Virus record (IMG/VR): IMGVR_UViG_3300044691_000607
Location: 1 to 26,595 of that record
Length of the DNA: 26,595 nucleotides
Source of the DNA: a virus
Direction: 5' to 3' (one strand)
This document shows, one piece after another, positions 3,636 to 26,210 of this stretch. Position 1 is the stretch's first letter. Every line of letters starts with the position of its first letter. Position numbers and translations under genes: made by a program. The notes below the pieces were generated by a model that did no database searches, was not told the DNA's origin, and worked only from the letters and a program-made list of their open reading frames with translations.

Positions 3636-3793
3636 GACGTTACGGAAAAACGATGTCCAGAAGGCAGTGGCGGGAGATTCGACTGGTCCGGTCGCTGTTA
3701 CGTGAGTGGGGCGCGCACCTGTCCGTGATGACTCCGCAGTGTGTTATCCGCCGTGTGGAATCTGGATTCTCTCATCGTAGGCGCGCGACCTAG
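3632..3793 (+). CDS. Small arginine-rich protein of unknown function
   Basis: This is a 53-residue, very basic ORF (MRRYGKTMSRRQWREIRLVR...), starting in an ATGA overlap with the immunity-type gene, with GGAGG-like sequence (cggaggcc) 5 bp upstream. Its TAG (3791-3793) shares a CTAG palindrome with the stop codon of the tape measure gene read on the other strand, so the cassette ends exactly where the late operon's H gene ends. No domain is recognised. The overlap and ribosome binding site argue for a real gene; function is unknown. Confidence 0.5.
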   Translation: MRRYGKTMSRRQWREIRLVRSLLREWGAHLSVMTPQCVIRRVESGFSHRRRAT

Positions 3794-6564
3794 CCACCCT
3801 GGCTGGCGGCGGAGATGGGGCCGCCGCTGGCATGGTCTTCGAGGATGGTGTGGATCACGAAGGCCTTCATATCCGAATCGAAGCTGGTGCCCGTCGTGCG
3901 CGCCGTCACAGGCTGACTGCTGGCGTTGGTGATGTTCATGGTCACATTCGGCGGACCGCTCGAGGGCGCCCGCGTCAGGTCTGCCAGCGCGCCGCTCGGC
4001 ATCGTAGGCGCTGCATCCTTGGGGAAGAAGAGCTCCGGATCGGGCATGATCGTTCCCGGCCCCTTGGGGAACATGAGCTCCGGACCGTCCTCGCTGGTGA
4101 TGATCGGGCTGTCGCCGGAGTAGTCGCCGCCGCCGGCGAAGCCGGGAAAGTTGCCTGGTGAGATGTCCGCGCCGCCACCAGCCGATGCTCCTCCTCCCGC
4201 GCCGCCTCCCGAGAACAGGCCGCTCAGAAACGGCGTGAGAAACTTTTGCGCGGCAAACTTCACCGCGAGCTCGATCAGGTCCTTCTCCATGCTCACCACC
4301 ATCTGGTGGAAGGAATCTTTCCCGCTGAGCGCTCCCTTGCCGATCTGCTCCGCCATCGAGGTCACGCCGTCGCCCAGTTTTTTATAGGGTTGCTGGTCCT
4401 GATTCTGGTCCGGCCGGTTCAGCGTGTCGAGCTCCGCGTGCAGGGCATGCGCCTTCTGGATAAACTCGCCGCCCAGGGTCGCCGCCAGCGCGTCGTACTG
4501 CGCGGTCAGGTCCTTCAGGGTTGCGGCAGTCTCTTTGTTCAGCGCGTTGATCTCTTTGGTCGCGGCCTTGCGCTGGGTGGGGTCCTTCTGTTCGCGGTCC
4601 TTCTGGGCGGCCACGGCCAGCGCGCCCTCGGCCTTGGTCTGGTTGATCTCGCGCTCGACCTCGTTGATGCGCAGCAGCTCCTGCTCCTGCTGCTGCAGCG
4701 CCGCCAGGCCCACGGTGTCGCCGCCGTCGGCGGTAGCCTTCTTCATCGCGATATCCTGCTCGCGCTGCATCAGCGCCAGCCGGGCCTGGATGCCGCTGTT
4801 GTTGTTCTCCTCGATCCGCGCCGCGGCCTTCAGGCTGGCGAGGTTGCGCTCAAGGTCGGTGATCTTCAGCAGCTCCATCTCCTGCTGCTGCAGCGCCTCC
4901 AGAGCGACGGTATCGCCGCCCTGGGCCTTGGTCTTGTCCATGGCGTCCTTCTGCTGTTGCTGCAGCAGAGCCACGCGCGCGCCGATGCCGGTGTTGGTGT
5001 GTTCCTCGAGCTGGGCCGCGACTTTGAGGTCGGCCAGGTGGCGCGTGTCGGCACGCTCCTGGTCTGCCAAAGTTGCGTTTATATCAAGTGCCGACCGTTT
5101 CTCCTCGAGCGCATTGATCTGCTGGTTCAGCTTCACGATCTCGGTCGCGGTCCTCTCTTCCTCGGCCGAGTTGCCGTGCTTGTCGCGGGTCGCTTTCTTG
5201 TCGCCGTGCTGTTTGGTCTGCAGCGCCTGCAGCTGGCCGATGCGCTGGCGCAGCGCGGCCTCCTCCGCATCGAGCGCGTCTTTTTGCAGTAGAAGTTTTT
5301 CGCGGTAATAGTTCGCGTCGCTGGTGAGGAAGAGTTTGTGGTCGGCATCCATCTGCGCCAGTAGAAGCGAGTCGGCCGACTTCTGCGCCGCGGCCTCGGC
5401 GGTCGAGTTTGCCTCGGCCAGAGCCGCCGCTGCAGCCGCGACGTTGTTGGTGGATTTGCCCTTGCCGGTGAGGTCGTCGCCGTGGTCGAAGCCGCCCTTG
5501 CCGTCCGATTTGGGCCTGGGCACAAACGGCGTCACCGGGCCGGGCGCGGGGCCGTTCACCGCGATATCGCGAAACTTCTTCGACTGCTCCGCCAGCTCCT
5601 TGGCCGCGGCCAGGTCCCTGCGCGCGACGTCGCCCATGCCGGGGATCAGAGCTTCGAGGACGCCGAACGCATTCTCCGCTCCGGAGGCGAGGCCGTAGAA
5701 GCCCGCGGTGGTCAAAGCCAGCACGCGGATCATGAACTCGCCCCAGTCCTTCATCATCTCCTGGGTGTCTTTGCCGCCGGCCATCACGCCCAGCATCTGG
5801 GTCAGGCCCGGGGTCAGGCCCTCTGTGAAGGCGACGCCCGCGCCCATGATGTGCTGCTGCAGATCCTTGAGTCTTTGATTCGTGGCTGCAAGAGCTTCGG
5901 CCGCGTCGCCGTCGAGATACACGCCCGCGGCCTGCGCCTTCTGCTTCCACACTTCCCAGTTGTTCCCCACCTCCAGCAGCATGGGGATCATGTCCTGGCC
6001 GCCCTTCTTCAGCAGGCCGTTGGCGAGCTCGAGTCGGCGCACAGGATTCTCTGTCGCGGCGATCGCCTGCGCTACCCGCTTGAACGCGACCTCCGCTCCG
6101 TCGCTCTGGCTGGCCAGCTGCTTGGCATCGAGGCCTAGACCCTTCAAAAACGCGGAGGCCTTTTTATCGTTGCCGTCGGCCGCGTTGCCGATCGACGCGC
6201 CCATCTTCGCCACCGCCTTGGTCAGCGAATCGAACTCGGTGCCGGTGATGGCGGCGGCGTAGTGCAGAGTGCTCAGCGTCTCGACGGCCAGCCCGGTCTT
6301 CTCGTGCGCCTTTTCGATCGCTTCGCCAAACTCCAGCGTCTGGGTGACCAGCTCCTTCAGCACGTCGACGGCCTCATAGAGCAACATGGTCTCGGCGACG
6401 GACTCGAGGTGGCGCTTGATCTGCTCCATGGCCTCGCCGATGCCCGACGCCGACTCCTTCGCATGTTCGGCGGTCTCGCGGAGATGCCGGTCGACGAGCT
6501 CGAGCGCCTTGGCCGCGCTCGCCCCGTCGCCGGTGATCTGGATTACGATTCCCTTAGGTGCCAT
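3790..6564 (-). CDS. Tail tape measure protein (H-like)
   Basis: This 924-residue protein is the longest in the window and lies directly after the G/GT chaperone genes, the fixed position of tape measure genes. It is helical, Ala/Gln/Lys/Glu-rich with long coiled-coil stretches (about residues 380-720). It has a hydrophobic region at about 280-312, a proline-rich linker at 338-352 (PAPGPVTPFVPRPK), and a C-terminal glycine-rich part with FPGFAGGGDYSGDSPIITS and DGPEL, a common tape-measure ending. Residues 510-574 and 575-639 are a direct tandem repeat. It sets tail length and later helps DNA pass into the cell. The start ATG at 6564 follows the T stop at 6583-6581 by 16 bp. It ends convergently against the + strand cassette. 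Confidence 0.93.
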   Translation of the reverse strand: MAPKGIVIQITGDGASAAKALELVDRHLRETAEHAKESASGIGEAMEQIKRHLESVAETMLLYEAVDVLKELVTQTLEFGEAIEKAHEKTGLAVETLSTLHYAAAITGTEFDSLTKAVAKMGASIGNAADGNDKKASAFLKGLGLDAKQLASQSDGAEVAFKRVAQAIAATENPVRRLELANGLLKKGGQDMIPMLLEVGNNWEVWKQKAQAAGVYLDGDAAEALAATNQRLKDLQQHIMGAGVAFTEGLTPGLTQMLGVMAGGKDTQEMMKDWGEFMIRVLALTTAGFYGLASGAENAFGVLEALIPGMGDVARRDLAAAKELAEQSKKFRDIAVNGPAPGPVTPFVPRPKSDGKGGFDHGDDLTGKGKSTNNVAAAAAALAEANSTAEAAAQKSADSLLLAQMDADHKLFLTSDANYYREKLLLQKDALDAEEAALRQRIGQLQALQTKQHGDKKATRDKHGNSAEEERTATEIVKLNQQINALEEKRSALDINATLADQERADTRHLADLKVAAQLEEHTNTGIGARVALLQQQQKDAMDKTKAQGGDTVALEALQQQEMELLKITDLERNLASLKAAARIEENNNSGIQARLALMQREQDIAMKKATADGGDTVGLAALQQQEQELLRINEVEREINQTKAEGALAVAAQKDREQKDPTQRKAATKEINALNKETAATLKDLTAQYDALAATLGGEFIQKAHALHAELDTLNRPDQNQDQQPYKKLGDGVTSMAEQIGKGALSGKDSFHQMVVSMEKDLIELAVKFAAQKFLTPFLSGLFSGGGAGGGASAGGGADISPGNFPGFAGGGDYSGDSPIITSEDGPELMFPKGPGTIMPDPELFFPKDAAPTMPSGALADLTRAPSSGPPNVTMNITNASSQPVTARTTGTSFDSDMKAFVIHTILEDHASGGPISAASQGG
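4648..5037 (-). repeat. Tandem 65-residue (195-bp) repeat within the tape measure gene
   Basis: Two adjacent units code for residues 510-574 (4843-5037) and 575-639 (4648-4842). Both follow the same pattern: LA.LK.AA..EE....GI.AR.AL.Q, then a GGDTV.L.ALQQQE.ELL.I block and a closing LER or VER. The units have diverged but keep the same length with no gaps, so this is a true in-frame duplication in the coiled-coil body that lengthens the tape. Confidence 0.85.
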
Positions 6565-6580: not shown

Positions 6581-7320
6581 CTAAATCACCTCACCTTGTT
6601 TCTGTCTCTTTGCCAGATGTTTTTCCAGCCGCGCGTTCGCGTCCTTCAACTCCTGCTTCTCGTCTCGCTCCGGCGGCTCTTCGCCTAGCAACTCCTCCGG
6701 CGTGATCTCGGCATCCACATACTGCGAGTTCAGCAGCATCGCTACCCAGCCCGCCTCCCTGTGGGCCTGATTCTCCTGCTGGCGCTCAAAGCCCTGGCGC
6801 GCCAGGTGGTACTCGCGGATGGTCGTCCCCCAGAATTGATCCGGGGTTTGACCTAGGACGCCGCACGCGAACCTCTGCGCCTCGTTGAAGTCGAAGCCCT
6901 GGCGCCGGCGGCGGACGGGCTTGCCGTCTTTGCTTCGGCCGCCTCGGCTTTTCCCGGCTGTGCCGGCGTGGATACGGCGCCGGTGATTGCCATCACCGTG
7001 GCGTTGAAGATGTTCACCAAGGTCCAGGGCCGGATAAACTCATCCGCCTCATTCTCACTCAGGTATTCGCCGGTGCCGGAGATCTCTTCCTGCAGGCCTG
7101 CCCAGAGAAAGTAGGCCAGCGTATCGAGCGATTTCAGTTCGAGCTTCGTCTGCTTCGCGTCGGCGGGGTTGCGCTTGACCGTGTAGAGCGCGCCCAGGAA
7201 GCCGACGCCGTACTTCTCGACCAGAAGCGCGGTGGCCGACTTGGGGAAGAATAGGGTCCGGAGGCGAGGAACGTCGCCGAGGGTGATGGCAATGGCTCCG
7301 CGCGAGGCTGTGATATGCAT
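6581..7320 (-). CDS. Tail assembly chaperone G-T fusion made by programmed -1 frameshift
   Basis: Reading starts at the G start codon (7320), shifts -1 at the heptamer G GGA AAA (6955-6949) and continues to the TAG at 6583-6581, giving about 246 residues. The T-specific part in the -1 frame has no stops: after the shift it reads SRGGRSKDGKPVRRRRQGFD, then FWGTTIREYHLARQGFERQQ, and ends in a charged helical tail (LEKHLAKRQKQGEVI). The DQFW..T..E...A pattern is typical of T-type domains in siphovirus chaperones. In lambda, gpG and gpGT together hold and deliver the tape measure during tube assembly. There is no convincing independent start for the T part. The T stop lies 16 bp before the tape measure ATG. 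Heptamer, frame phasing and gene position all agree. Confidence 0.88.
6853..7320 (-). CDS. Tail assembly chaperone G-like (zero-frame product)
   Basis: The zero-frame product is 155 residues from the ATG at 7320 (MHITASRGAIAITLGDVPRL), which has AGGAG 10 bp upstream (7331-7335). The upstream in-frame extension to 7386 runs through a terminator hairpin and is unlikely to be translated. The N-terminal domain (residues ~1-120) holds LRTLFFPKSATALLVEKYGV and LAYFLWAGL, consistent with small helical tail chaperones; after the slip site the zero frame continues for ~30 low-complexity Ala/Ser/Arg residues and stops at 6853. Most ribosomes are expected to make this short form and a minority the G-T fusion, as in lambda. 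Confidence 0.85.
   Translation of the reverse strand: MHITASRGAIAITLGDVPRLRTLFFPKSATALLVEKYGVGFLGALYTVKRNPADAKQTKLELKSLDTLAYFLWAGLQEEISGTGEYLSENEADEFIRPWTLVNIFNATVMAITGAVSTPAQPGKAEAAEAKTASPSAAGARASTSTRRRGSRAAS
6949..6955 (-). other. -1 ribosomal frameshift slip site GGGAAAA
   Basis: On the minus strand the zero-frame codons CCG GGA AAA GCC contain the slippery heptamer G GGA AAA, the X XXY YYZ form and nearly the same as lambda's GGGAAAG between G and T. Downstream, GGCGGC (about 6942-6937) can pair with GCCGCC near 6910-6902, a possible stimulatory stem. The -1 frame is then open to 6581 and codes for a T-like domain. Confidence 0.88.
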
Positions 7321-7337
7321 AAAGAAAAATCTCCTGT

Positions 7338-7367
7338 AAAAAAGCGGCCCCCACTTTCGTGAGGGCC
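7338..7367 (-). terminator. Rho-independent terminator/attenuator between tail tube and G genes
   Basis: On the minus strand, GGCCCTCAC and GTGGGGGCC (7367-7359 and 7354-7346) form a 9-bp stem with one G-U pair and a GAAA tetraloop, followed by GC and six T residues (7343-7338). It sits after the tail tube stop at 7432 and before the G start at 7320. It probably lowers transcription into the chaperone and tape measure genes, whose products are needed in far fewer copies than the tube. Confidence 0.85.
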
Positions 7368-7431
7368 AATCTGCCTTGCGAAACAAACAACGACGCGCGT
7401 GCGGCCTAGCCCTTCCGCCGCGCCGATCTGG

Positions 7432-8109
7432 TTAGTCCTCCGCCTGGAGGTCTGTGAGGGTTGCCGCGTTCGGTACCGGAGCGGTCTGCGCGATGATGCT
7501 GAGCGGGCCTGTGCCCTTCAGCGAGACATCCTGCCCGACGATCTTGCCGACGCCGGCGGTCCAGTCGATACCGTCGATGTAGGCCATGCCGGAGAAGCTG
7601 TCGTCGCCGGTGTTGGGGTTGGCGAAGAAATTCCAGCGTTGCGGCACGCGCGGGGTGGCGGCGAGCGAGGAGCGGATCTGCGCGATCTGCGAGGGGTCGC
7701 CCATCAGGTAGACGTACTTCGCTTTGACCGTCCAGGATGCGCTCGAAGGCAGTGAGGACTCCCACTCCGCATCGTCCGTGGTGGTTGCGTCGGCGGTCTT
7801 CAGCTTGTACGCGATGTTCCAGTCCATCAGCCCGATCACCTGCTGCTCTGTGGTGGAGACAGTGAGCGTGACGCCTATTGCCGTCGCGGTGGCCGCGGCC
7901 GAGAGAGTGACCACGCCGGCGACGATCGAGAGAATGGTGGCGAGCGCGGGGACCCCGGCGCCGGTGATGAGCTGCCCGGCGAGGAGCCCGATGACGCTCG
8001 ACGGGCTGGCCAGGACTGCGCTGGTCGAGGTGGTGTTTGCGGTGAAGGTGAGGATGGTTCCCCCGACGCTGGTCTGTGCGAGGTCGCCGGTAAGCTTTTT
8101 GGTAGGCAT
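7432..8109 (-). CDS. Major tail tube protein (V-like)
   Basis: This 225-residue protein (MPTKKLTGDLAQTSVGG...) begins at the ATG at 8109 with AGGAG 10 bp upstream. Conserved features of the tube fold are V.GL.DW, an acidic DDAEWE loop, the SSASWTVKAK strand and GDDSFSG. Its place between the U-like terminator and the G chaperone gene, followed by a strong terminator, fits an abundant structural protein. Relative to the paralogue at 515-1567 it has an extra ~60 residues near the N-terminus (about 18-88), rich in Ala, Thr and Val (GQLITGAGVPALATILSI). That insert resembles short beta modules that recur in phage surface proteins and could project from the tube. Confidence 0.85.
   Translation of the reverse strand: MPTKKLTGDLAQTSVGGTILTFTANTTSTSAVLASPSSVIGLLAGQLITGAGVPALATILSIVAGVVTLSAAATATAIGVTLTVSTTEQQVIGLMDWNIAYKLKTADATTTDDAEWESSLPSSASWTVKAKYVYLMGDPSQIAQIRSSLAATPRVPQRWNFFANPNTGDDSFSGMAYIDGIDWTAGVGKIVGQDVSLKGTGPLSIIAQTAPVPNAATLTDLQAED
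7694..7752. repeat. 59-bp identical segment shared with 1332-1390 (copy 2)
   Basis: This segment of the major tail tube gene is identical at all 59 positions to 1332-1390 in the tail-tip paralogue. The surrounding coding sequence has diverged, with protein similarity kept. The repeat is in the same orientation, so recombination between copies would delete the ~6.3 kb between them, including the tape measure gene. Confidence 0.9.
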
Positions 8110-9176: not shown

Positions 9177-10547
9177 CTAAACCAGCTGGTCGAGGCAGAC
9201 CGAAAGCGCCTGCGGATAGGTCACGTTCGAATCCACCAGGAAATTCGCGATGATGTTCACCAGCGACTGGCGAGCCTTGGTGTAGGGATCGAGGATGATC
9301 TCCATCGCGCCCCACTCCGCGATCGTCACTGCGCCGAAGCTGCCGCCGATGGCCGCGTGGCAGACGCCGGCCGAGGTGCCCTTGGTGAGCGTCTTGGGCA
9401 GCAGGTTCGACCAGTACGCATCGTGGCCGTTGATGCGGCCCTGTCCGTCGGCCCCGTAGGTGAAGGTCGGCAGCGCGATGGTGTTGGCGAGCTCTGGCTG
9501 GCCGGCCAGGTAGCCTGCGATCTCCGGGGTGAGCATGTACTTCTGCACGCCCAGGACCTCTGCGTTGGCGACAAAGGCCGCGGTCAGCATGTCGATGTAG
9601 AGCTGCTTGGTCGGGGTCGCTCCGTTGGTGCCGAGCGCCTTCAGGTTGACGCCGGTGGTGGTCAGCACGCCGGTGGGCTGGGTGCCGCCGGTGCCGGCGA
9701 TCGCAGCCTTCTCGATGCCGATTGCCGCAACCATCACGAGCGCGTTGCGAACCTTCGCTTCGAAGTCGATTGAGCTCTGGATGAGCAGCTGGCGCGACCA
9801 GCTGGTGCTGGCAGTCGCCCCGAGCGGGGAGAACGGCACCTGGCCGAAGGTGGGATCGACGTCGGCGTTATCCGCGCCGGGATTCTCACCCACCCAGTTG
9901 AAACCGACGTCGCCGGTCATCTTGGGCAGCGCGAAGTTGCTGGAGCAGCCTCCCATGAACTCGGCTCCCAGCGCGGTGAGCCGAAGCGCGGGGCGGAGGA
10001 AGTCGAGGAAGGAGACGAGGTTGGTGGCCACCGTTGCGCCGCCGCCCGTGGTCGAGCCAGGCGAGCCCGCTACGCTGGCGCGCTTGCGGAGCTCTTCGCT
10101 GGTCTGGCGGAAGATGGGCTCGGTGGTGGGGATGAAGAGTCCGCTGGTATCGCGGCCTAATTTCTTGGCGATGGTCTGCGAGATCTCCAGCTCGAAGCCG
10201 GCTTCAGTCGGGGTGCTTCCGCCCGAGGTATTGGCGATGGCGGCGACTGCGCGCATGAAGCTGTAACCTGCGCGCTCTTTTTCGGTGAGCGTGACCTGGC
10301 CGCCCGCGTTGAGCAGGGCTTCCTTCTCGCGCTTCTTTTCGAGGATCGAGGTCGCGACTGCGTCACGGCTCGAGCCGTCGTTGATTGCCTTCTCCGCGAG
10401 CTCGCGGGTAAGGATCTCGGGAAACTGGCGGGCGAGCAGGGTGATGCCGACAGTGCGCTCGCGCTCGGTCTTGATGGCGTCAGTGTGGTCGAGGGTGACG
10501 ACCGCTGCGGGAACAACTGCGGCGGGGACGATTACTTCGTTTGCCAT
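9177..10547 (-). CDS. Major capsid protein from internal in-frame start
   Basis: An in-frame ATG at 10547 (residue 222 of the fusion, MANEVIVPAAVV) is preceded by AGGAG at 10558-10554 with a 6-nt spacer, an ideal ribosome binding site and far better than that of the full-length frame. It gives 456 residues: delta-like helical region plus HK97 capsid fold, without protease. The nested arrangement recalls lambda C/Nu3, where a scaffold starts inside the protease gene, but here it is the capsid itself. Residue 222 falls in the proline-rich linker between the two domains, which supports a designed internal start. Confidence 0.75.
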   Translation of the reverse strand: MANEVIVPAAVVPAAVVTLDHTDAIKTERERTVGITLLARQFPEILTRELAEKAINDGSSRDAVATSILEKKREKEALLNAGGQVTLTEKERAGYSFMRAVAAIANTSGGSTPTEAGFELEISQTIAKKLGRDTSGLFIPTTEPIFRQTSEELRKRASVAGSPGSTTGGGATVATNLVSFLDFLRPALRLTALGAEFMGGCSSNFALPKMTGDVGFNWVGENPGADNADVDPTFGQVPFSPLGATASTSWSRQLLIQSSIDFEAKVRNALVMVAAIGIEKAAIAGTGGTQPTGVLTTTGVNLKALGTNGATPTKQLYIDMLTAAFVANAEVLGVQKYMLTPEIAGYLAGQPELANTIALPTFTYGADGQGRINGHDAYWSNLLPKTLTKGTSAGVCHAAIGGSFGAVTIAEWGAMEIILDPYTKARQSLVNIIANFLVDSNVTYPQALSVCLDQLV

Positions 10548-11210
10548 TTGATTCTCCTGGGTGCTGCGTGTCGGCAAAGCCGGCGGTGTGGCTGGAATGC
10601 CGGCAACTCGCACCGGGTACTGCGGAATGTGGGTGAGGTCTCGGCCGACGCCGACCGAGGGATCAGCGGGGATCGCGACCAGGCTTACTTCGCAGGGCTC
10701 CCACTCGTCGGCTTCGTAGGTGCCGAGGTAGTTGGGGTCTTCGTCGTCTGCCGGATCGATATCGGCAACGCGCTGTTCGCTGTGCACGATGTAGCCGACA
10801 GAGATGTAGGGCAGTGTGCCCTCGCGGACCTCGGTGGCAATGTCCTTCCCGAATTGAGTAGTGTTAAAACGGATATCTCCGCGACCGGTCTTGTCACTGA
10901 TCACCCCGTTCTGCAAAATTCCCGCGCGCTGGTTCGGATCGTGATTCACCAGCACAGCAAGACCCTGGGCGAGGCGGGCGGTTTTGACCGAGCCCTTCGA
11001 GTGATTGAGAACCTCGTACCACCACATCCCGCCCCAGCTCATCCGCTTGATGGGGTTGGCGCTCGAGAAGGAGATGGGGACGACGTTCTCGGCCGGATCG
11101 GCGTCGGCGGCCTTCGCTGCGGCGCGAACATCAAAGACGCGGCTCTGCATCGGCAGCTTCGCCGGGAGGGCGCGTTTGGTCGACAACGGAACGACTGCAG
11201 CGGTGGCCAT
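9177..11210 (-). CDS. Fused HK97-type prohead protease and major capsid protein
   Basis: A single 677-residue frame joins two proteins that are usually separate. Residues ~20-195 are an HK97-type prohead protease: VLNHSKG, LAVLVNHD with candidate catalytic His90, SVGY with Ser137, and EVSLVAIPAD with acidic Glu174. Residues ~222-300 form a charged helical delta/scaffold-like region (KTERERTVGITLLARQFPEI). The rest is an HK97-fold capsid protein, with a Ser/Gly-rich region near 370, NWVGENPGADNADVDPTFGQ, and a C-terminal DPYTKARQSLVNIIANFLVD. The fusion may supply protease inside the prohead at low ratio. An internal start with a strong ribosome binding site (see 9177-10547) would make capsid alone. 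Start chosen at ATG 11210, with no clear ribosome binding site, which fits low synthesis. Confidence 0.88.
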   Translation of the reverse strand: MATAAVVPLSTKRALPAKLPMQSRVFDVRAAAKAADADPAENVVPISFSSANPIKRMSWGGMWWYEVLNHSKGSVKTARLAQGLAVLVNHDPNQRAGILQNGVISDKTGRGDIRFNTTQFGKDIATEVREGTLPYISVGYIVHSEQRVADIDPADDEDPNYLGTYEADEWEPCEVSLVAIPADPSVGVGRDLTHIPQYPVRVAGIPATPPALPTRSTQENQMANEVIVPAAVVPAAVVTLDHTDAIKTERERTVGITLLARQFPEILTRELAEKAINDGSSRDAVATSILEKKREKEALLNAGGQVTLTEKERAGYSFMRAVAAIANTSGGSTPTEAGFELEISQTIAKKLGRDTSGLFIPTTEPIFRQTSEELRKRASVAGSPGSTTGGGATVATNLVSFLDFLRPALRLTALGAEFMGGCSSNFALPKMTGDVGFNWVGENPGADNADVDPTFGQVPFSPLGATASTSWSRQLLIQSSIDFEAKVRNALVMVAAIGIEKAAIAGTGGTQPTGVLTTTGVNLKALGTNGATPTKQLYIDMLTAAFVANAEVLGVQKYMLTPEIAGYLAGQPELANTIALPTFTYGADGQGRINGHDAYWSNLLPKTLTKGTSAGVCHAAIGGSFGAVTIAEWGAMEIILDPYTKARQSLVNIIANFLVDSNVTYPQALSVCLDQLV

Positions 11211-23936: not shown

Positions 23937-24842
23937 ATGCGAGGTCAAACTACTAAACCCGCGCCCGGCTTACTGGTCGGCGGCCGCACCCCGGTGGCCC
24001 TCATCGATTTGGTTTTAGCCGCACTTCCCTCCCCCAATACCCGCAGGGCATACCGGCACGCGATCAGCGAGTTATTCAGCTACGCGGCCGGCCGGCCAGT
24101 CACCCGCGCGCTGCTGTTGGAGTGGCGCGCGGCCCTGGCCACCAGGATCTCTGCCGCTACCGTCAACCTCCAGCTCTCGGCCGTGCGGCGCCTGGTCCGC
24201 GAGGCGAGGCGGTCCGGAGCGATCGACGGGCAGGAGGCGGCCGAGCTGCTCGAGGTCCGGGGCCTGCCCCAGCGCGGCCGGCGGACCGGCAACTGGCTGA
24301 CCCCGGAACAGACGCGCCAGATCCTCGCTTTGCCGAATCGCAAAACTCTGCGAGGCCGGCGCAATTTTTGTGTGCTCGCTCTATTGATCGGCTGCGGGGT
24401 GCGCCGCAGCGAGCTGGCCGCCCTCGAGGTGGAAGCCCTGAAGCGCCGCGACAACCGCTGGGTGCTGGCGGATCTCGCCGGCAAGGGCGGACGGGTGCGC
24501 ACGGTGGCGGTACCGAAGTGGGTGATGACGGCGATCGACGAGTGGAGAGCCGCGGCGAAGATCAAGGCCGGCAAACTGATCCGCCGGCTCACGCTCGTCC
24601 CCGAGGGACTCAGCGAGTACGCGATCTGGGAGATCGTGAGCCAGCACGCAGCGCGGATCGGCGTGTCGAACCTGGGGCCGCATGACCTGCGCAGGACCTG
24701 CGCGAAGCTCTGCCGGTCCAAGGGCGGCGACATCGAGCAGATCCAGTTCATGCTCGGCCACGAATCCATCCGCACCACACAGCTGTATCTCGGCACGATG
24801 CAAAACCTCGAGACCGCTGTGAACGACAACCTGGGGTTATGA
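23937..24842 (+). CDS. Tyrosine integrase/recombinase
   Basis: This 301-residue tyrosine recombinase has the full catalytic set: Arg156 in GCGVRRSELAAL, Lys183 in AGKGGRVRTVAVP, His249 and Arg252 in PHDLRRTCAKL, His275 in LGHESIRTTQ and nucleophile Tyr284 in QLYLG. Residues ~20-110 form the SAM-like core-binding domain (SPNTRRAYRHAISELFSYAA). Length and XerC/D-like organisation fit a phage integrase. There is no Shine-Dalgarno before the ATG at 23937; translation may be leaderless or from a downstream start. It heads the rightward operon, next to the dyad. Confidence 0.93.
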   Translation: MRGQTTKPAPGLLVGGRTPVALIDLVLAALPSPNTRRAYRHAISELFSYAAGRPVTRALLLEWRAALATRISAATVNLQLSAVRRLVREARRSGAIDGQEAAELLEVRGLPQRGRRTGNWLTPEQTRQILALPNRKTLRGRRNFCVLALLIGCGVRRSELAALEVEALKRRDNRWVLADLAGKGGRVRTVAVPKWVMTAIDEWRAAAKIKAGKLIRRLTLVPEGLSEYAIWEIVSQHAARIGVSNLGPHDLRRTCAKLCRSKGGDIEQIQFMLGHESIRTTQLYLGTMQNLETAVNDNLGL

Positions 24843-25283: not shown

Positions 25284-25543
25284 TGGCTCAACAAATAATC
25301 GAGCGAGAGTGGGTGAGCTTCAAAAACAGGGTGATGCATCCCCAGTCGCCACCCAACCAGGTCACCGAGATGAAGAACGCTTTCTACGCCGGTGCGCTGT
25401 CCGCCTTCGTCACGGTACAGAATGCGGCCGAACTGCCTCCAGACGTGGCGTGCCGCGTGCTGGACGGTTTACAGCGTGAGTTTGAATCGTTCTTTCAATG
25501 CCTGGTGAGCAGCTATGCCAACGTACAGAAATACGATTCTTAA
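25283..25543 (+). CDS. Hypothetical protein, 86 residues
   Basis: Starts at ATG 25283 in a TAATG overlap, reading MAQQIIEREWVSFKNRVMHP. The sequence has EMKNAFYAGALSAFVTVQNA, a stretch seen in many small phage proteins ('E...AFYAGA.....'), and a C-terminal helix. The family is of unknown role. It overlaps the regulator gene by 29 bp. Confidence 0.65.
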   Translation: MAQQIIEREWVSFKNRVMHPQSPPNQVTEMKNAFYAGALSAFVTVQNAAELPPDVACRVLDGLQREFESFFQCLVSSYANVQKYDS

Positions 25544-26210
25544 ATCGCTCCCCGACGACGTGATCCAGCGGCTGCAGCTGCGGATGGTGACGCTCGACAA
25601 CGAGCGCCGCATCGAGTATCCCGGCGAGCCGATCGACAACCTGTTCTTCGTCGAGAGCGGCATGGCGTCGATGACCACGACGTTTCTCGATGGCTCGCAG
25701 GTGGAGGTGGGGATGTTCGGCTTCGAGGGCGTGATCGGGATCTCCGCGCTGATGGGGACCAAGCTTTCTCTGAACCGGGTGTATGCGCAGATCGATGGCT
25801 GCGGGTACATGGGGCCGATCGCCACGGGGCGTCTGGAGTTCCAGCGCGGCGGCCTCTTTCAAACCCTCGCGCTGCGCTACGTGCAGACCCAGCTGGTGAC
25901 GGCGATGCAGTCGGCCGGCTGCAACGCGCGGCACAACTTAGAGCAGCGCCTGGCGCGCTGGCTTCTGCTGTGCGCCGACCGCGCCGGCAGCGACACCTTC
26001 CGCATGACCCACGAATATCTGAGCGACATGCTGGGCACCACGCGGTCCACCGTCTCGATCGCCGCGGCCGAGGCGCAGAAGGCCGGGCTGATCGAATACA
26101 CGCGGGGCTTCATCCGGATCCTCGATGTCGTCGGGCTCGAGGCGCGGGCGTGCGAGTGCTACCGCACCATCAAGAAACACCTGGATTCCTATGCGGAGTT
26201 TGCACAATGA
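25515..26210 (+). CDS. Crp/Fnr-family transcriptional regulator
   Basis: This 231-residue protein has a cNMP-binding-like beta-barrel domain (residues ~1-125: GEPIDNLFFVESGMASMTTT; MFGFEGVIGISALMGTK), a linker helix (LEQRLARWLLLCADR), and a C-terminal winged HTH (FRMTHEYLSDMLGTTRSTVS; KAGLIEYTRGFIRILD). The usual phosphate-binding GE/R.A motif of cAMP-binding Crp is not kept (FEGVIG, then NRVYAQ), and no Fnr-type cysteines are seen, so its effector is unknown. It overlaps small genes on both sides (29 bp upstream, ATGA downstream), so it is embedded in a phage-like operon rather than standing alone. It may control phage or host genes. Confidence 0.88.
   Translation: MPTYRNTILKSLPDDVIQRLQLRMVTLDNERRIEYPGEPIDNLFFVESGMASMTTTFLDGSQVEVGMFGFEGVIGISALMGTKLSLNRVYAQIDGCGYMGPIATGRLEFQRGGLFQTLALRYVQTQLVTAMQSAGCNARHNLEQRLARWLLLCADRAGSDTFRMTHEYLSDMLGTTRSTVSIAAAEAQKAGLIEYTRGFIRILDVVGLEARACECYRTIKKHLDSYAEFAQ

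Follow-up and report, generated by a model that had tools for sequence, protein, structure and literature searches.

A lambda G/GT-type −1 frameshift predicted at an invariant GGGAAAA heptamer in the tail assembly chaperone gene of an uncultivated phage

The stretch of DNA analysed here (the window; 26,595 nt, positions 1 to 26,595 of IMG/VR record IMGVR_UViG_3300044691_000607) belongs to an uncultivated tailed phage. On its minus strand, a tail assembly chaperone gene lies between the gene for a major tail protein, recognized by weak matches only, and that for a tape measure protein, for which the matches are clear. A tail terminator gene is also present upstream of the chaperone gene. The features of the region are as follows.

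7432–8109, minus strand: probable major tail (tube) protein, just upstream of the chaperone gene (phrog_3884 major tail protein, E 4.7e-4)
6853–7320, minus strand: G-like zero-frame product, a tail assembly chaperone of 155 aa (ORF from ATG 7320)
6955–6949, minus strand: slippery heptamer G_GGA_AAA, in the correct phase, and identical and in phase in 12/12 distinct relatives
6853–6948, minus strand: dual-coded overlap, in which the low-complexity tail of the zero frame coincides with the beginning of T
6581–6949, minus strand: T-like extension in the −1 frame after the predicted slippage, 122 codons plus stop (open frame, PF09550 match, Ka/Ks)
6791–6895, minus strand: Phage_TAC_6 match inside the T extension (E 5.8e-7, profile positions 1–35 of 58, no internal stop)
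3790–6564, minus strand: tape measure protein of 924 aa, immediately downstream of the chaperone gene (best match to PHROG families for the tail length tape measure, E 4e-14)

Against PF06199 (Phage_tail_2), the product of 7432–8109 scores 19.2 bits, below the cut-off of 23.8. The leader that lies 5' of the G start (7318–7420, minus strand) contains 'GGCCCTCACGAAAGTGGGGGCCGCTTTTTT', which is hairpin-like and has a T run; in relatives, too, GGGGGCC precedes a run of T. A terminator or attenuator separating the major tail and chaperone genes is one possible role for this element. In the loci L017–L021 (IMGVR 3300030688 and others), the interval from the tail gene to the start of G appears to contain short tandem repeats, with VVSESEG* repeated in translation.

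Elsewhere in the window, a 677-aa protein (9177–11210, minus strand) has an S78 prohead protease domain (PF04586) at its N terminus and a major capsid domain (PF05065) at its C terminus, and on this domain content its gene is a fused protease–capsid gene. A tyrosine integrase is encoded at 23937–24842 on the plus strand, opposite to the structural genes, and is followed by a Crp-type regulator (25515–26210, plus strand), a gene either of the phage or of flanking host DNA. The phage is probably temperate.

The zero frame of the chaperone gene has a possible ribosome-binding site (AGGAGA) within the 20 bases before ATG 7320, and closes at a stop codon at 6855–6853. At the heptamer it reads CCG GGA AAA GCC, with the first G of GGGAAAA in codon position 3, exactly the phase claimed in the preliminary description; this reading, of the form X_XXY_YYZ, provides the phase needed for tandem −1 slippage. 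The same description had the zero frame ending some 30 low-complexity residues later and the −1 frame open for about 120 codons, nearly to the tape measure gene, and both statements hold. After AAA the zero frame adds 31 Ala/Ser/Arg-rich residues of low complexity before it closes. In the −1 frame, the open stretch runs from 7041, beyond an upstream stop at 7042, to the stop at 6583–6581; it provides 122 codons after the heptamer and ends 16 bases before the tape measure ATG. The predicted GT fusion would be 246 aa in length. GGGAAAA occurs four times in the window against 2.24 expected, so the motif by itself would mean little. The features that exceed chance are its phase, its location where the frame switches and its retention in 12/12 distinct relatives.

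Scans of IMG/VR identified these relatives as 12 distinct loci, near copies being left out of the count (L006, L007, L008, L009, L010, L011, L017, L022, L024, L025, L027 and L028). Protein identity is 36–83% in the T part and 41–85% in the G part. All 12 carry GGGAAAA in the same phase, and homology to T goes on in the −1 frame. In the DNA alignment the seven bases of the heptamer are invariant, and the stretch that follows is variable and contains indels. In these genes, 6.7% of the codons for Gly are GGA and 25% of those for Lys are AAA, and Pro-Gly-Lys encoded as CCG GGA AAA would be expected in about 1% of cases from local codon usage, yet it is found at 13/13 loci (the window and its 12 relatives), although the loci are mutually related and multiplied codon probabilities are thus not a true significance. 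Synonymous sites elsewhere are far from conserved, with Ks of 0.44–1.5 in G and 0.48–0.99 in T. The heptamer and its phase, for which conservation in related phages had been proposed as a check, are invariant across 13/13 distinct loci. Searches with tblastn of 50,697 phage records, using the G part, the T part and the T part of a distant relative, gave no match, and a scan of genome contigs gave no confirmed relative. On the tblastn searches, and at the sensitivity used, this phage group is without relatives among the isolated phages searched.

The T part matches the tail assembly chaperone family PF09550 (Phage_TAC_6) at 25.2 bits, above the gathering cut-off of 23.4. PF09550 was also matched by every T part scanned at a threshold of E ≤ 0.1 (12/12, the window and 11 relatives; best E 3.8e-10). 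Ka/Ks values, calculated for the window against six relatives, are consistent with coding in this frame. Past the overlap, the −1 frame of the T part gives 0.18–0.42, and each of the other two frames gives about 0.95 or more; purifying selection acts here on the −1 frame and not on the others. Within the G part, Ka/Ks for the zero frame is 0.21–0.69, and values for the remaining frames are at least 0.89. The frame under selection thus differs between the two parts, which indicates a change of coding frame, a necessary consequence of a −1 shift at the heptamer. The domain matches and the purifying selection together bear out the −1-frame coding potential anticipated in relatives.

The G part is less readily assigned to a family. 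The zero-frame product has a weak match to phrog_2115 'tail protein' (E 6.5e-4), which is matched by 10/11 members of the G alignment (best E 1.3e-7). No convincing family match was found for the G part in Pfam. An AlphaFold2 model of G residues 1–124, built from the alignment, is fair (pLDDT 81, pTM 0.76), and the viral models nearest to this fold include several tail assembly proteins and chaperones (first E 5.6e-4); the agreement is loose (TM no higher than 0.64, high rmsd) and counts as supporting evidence only. Solved structures searched by sequence with G and T gave no match, and comparison of the G fold with solved structures returned only weak rows of unrelated proteins (Z 3.2 or less).

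This arrangement closely resembles that of phage lambda, in which the slippery heptamer is GGGAAAG. In both, the site precedes the tape measure gene, the −1 slip, which is predicted here, falls near the end of the G gene and the heptamer is of the GGGAAA type, ending in A here and in G in lambda. The G and T parts of the present phage belong to sequence families other than those of lambda. As in lambda gpG/gpGT, T lacks a start of its own and a short and a long product are predicted; in lambda, the G:GT ratio is approximately 30:1, and the binding partner is the tape measure protein for G and the tail tube subunit for T (PMC5009743). Long-tailed phages widely conserve tail chaperone frameshifts (PMC5009743), and one set of 3,679 phage genomes contains 2,397 tail assembly chaperones annotated as frameshifted (PMC10885494). 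For Microbacterium phage Bush (cluster GA), a −1 shift at GGGAAAA has been described in its tail assembly chaperone gene (PMC11749239). By this published description, the heptamer is identical to the one found here and the direction of the shift to the one predicted here, although Bush is an isolated actinobacteriophage and the present phage is uncultivated.

A lambda G/GT-type programmed −1 frameshift, by which one gene yields two tail assembly chaperones, is almost certainly the correct reading of this locus. What is directly established is the anatomy of the locus and its gene order, the conserved heptamer and its phase, the chaperone domain and the selection that acts on the −1 frame; slippage itself, its rate and the roles of both proteins we infer. 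Most ribosomes would stay in the zero frame until its stop at 6855–6853 and produce the 155-aa G-like protein. A minority would slip back one base, with the P- and A-site tRNAs on GGA AAA of G_GGA_AAA, and continue in the −1 frame to 6581 to produce the 246-aa G–T fusion. By analogy with lambda, coating of the tape measure protein may fall to the G part and recruitment of tail tube subunits to the T part, and the rate of slippage would fix the G:GT ratio.

The only serious rival to a frameshift is independent initiation of T, as a separate gene with its own, possibly non-standard, start reached by re-initiation or coupling, in which case the heptamer would be incidental. Separate T-type genes do exist: RcGTA has two tail chaperone functions in its tail gene cluster, as here, and they are described as separate genes, tail chaperone 1 (g10) and tail chaperone 2 (g10.5), unlike those of this locus (PMC11409702). 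The G part also differs from g10 in having no match to the g10 domain, PF11836, at E ≤ 1. ATC and CTG codons are present in the −1 frame, and in L010, L011, L017, L027 and L028 a −1-frame GTG lies upstream of the heptamer, within the G coding region. However, the −1 frame of the window is closed at 7042 and has no ATG, GTG or TTG before 6739, a position inside the T part and already beyond the TAC_6 match at 6895–6791. T thus lacks an ordinary start of its own, in agreement with what had been proposed for 6581–6949. The relatives likewise have no ATG, GTG or TTG from the heptamer to the conserved GFDF segment that opens the domain, and a separate start would leave the invariant in-phase GGGAAAA of 13 loci unexplained. 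Independent initiation is accordingly considered very unlikely.

Transcriptional slippage on the A run of the heptamer could also generate frame-shifted mRNAs. This run is no longer than AAAA, far below the lengths at which productive polymerase slippage is known, and only tandem tRNA slippage calls for the preceding GGG in X_XXY_YYZ phase; this explanation is improbable in the extreme. A frame switch within one functional unit may resemble a single-frame gene broken by an indel or a sequencing error, and this vanishingly improbable alternative is ruled out because 12 other distinct contigs switch identically at the same heptamer.

A GGCGGC/GCCGCC stem had been suggested to follow the heptamer, and this pairing is indeed present in the minimum-energy fold. 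The region after the heptamer is, however, no more stable than dinucleotide shuffles (z = −0.29, for folds without pseudoknots), and a consensus fold of 12 sequences contains compensatory change in 0/8 predicted pairs. The stem can form but is therefore not supported as a stimulator or other functional element. Individual folds of the loci differ from one another, and no Shine–Dalgarno-like stimulator was seen by eye just upstream of the heptamer. A more specific reading is that a PF09550-type T in an uncultivated phage lineage is reached only via a −1 shift at an invariant GGGAAAA, apparently with no conserved downstream stimulatory structure. This is plausible, though rather less than an even prospect.

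The locus is a new example of the lambda G/GT-type −1 shift, a mechanism long known and widespread in long-tailed phages, and understanding of the mechanism itself is unchanged. What is gained is a correct annotation for a GT fusion that would escape ORF callers, together with a set of 13 divergent loci that share one invariant slippery site. If the structure-free reading is true, this lineage would be a new instance of the shift with a simple signal.
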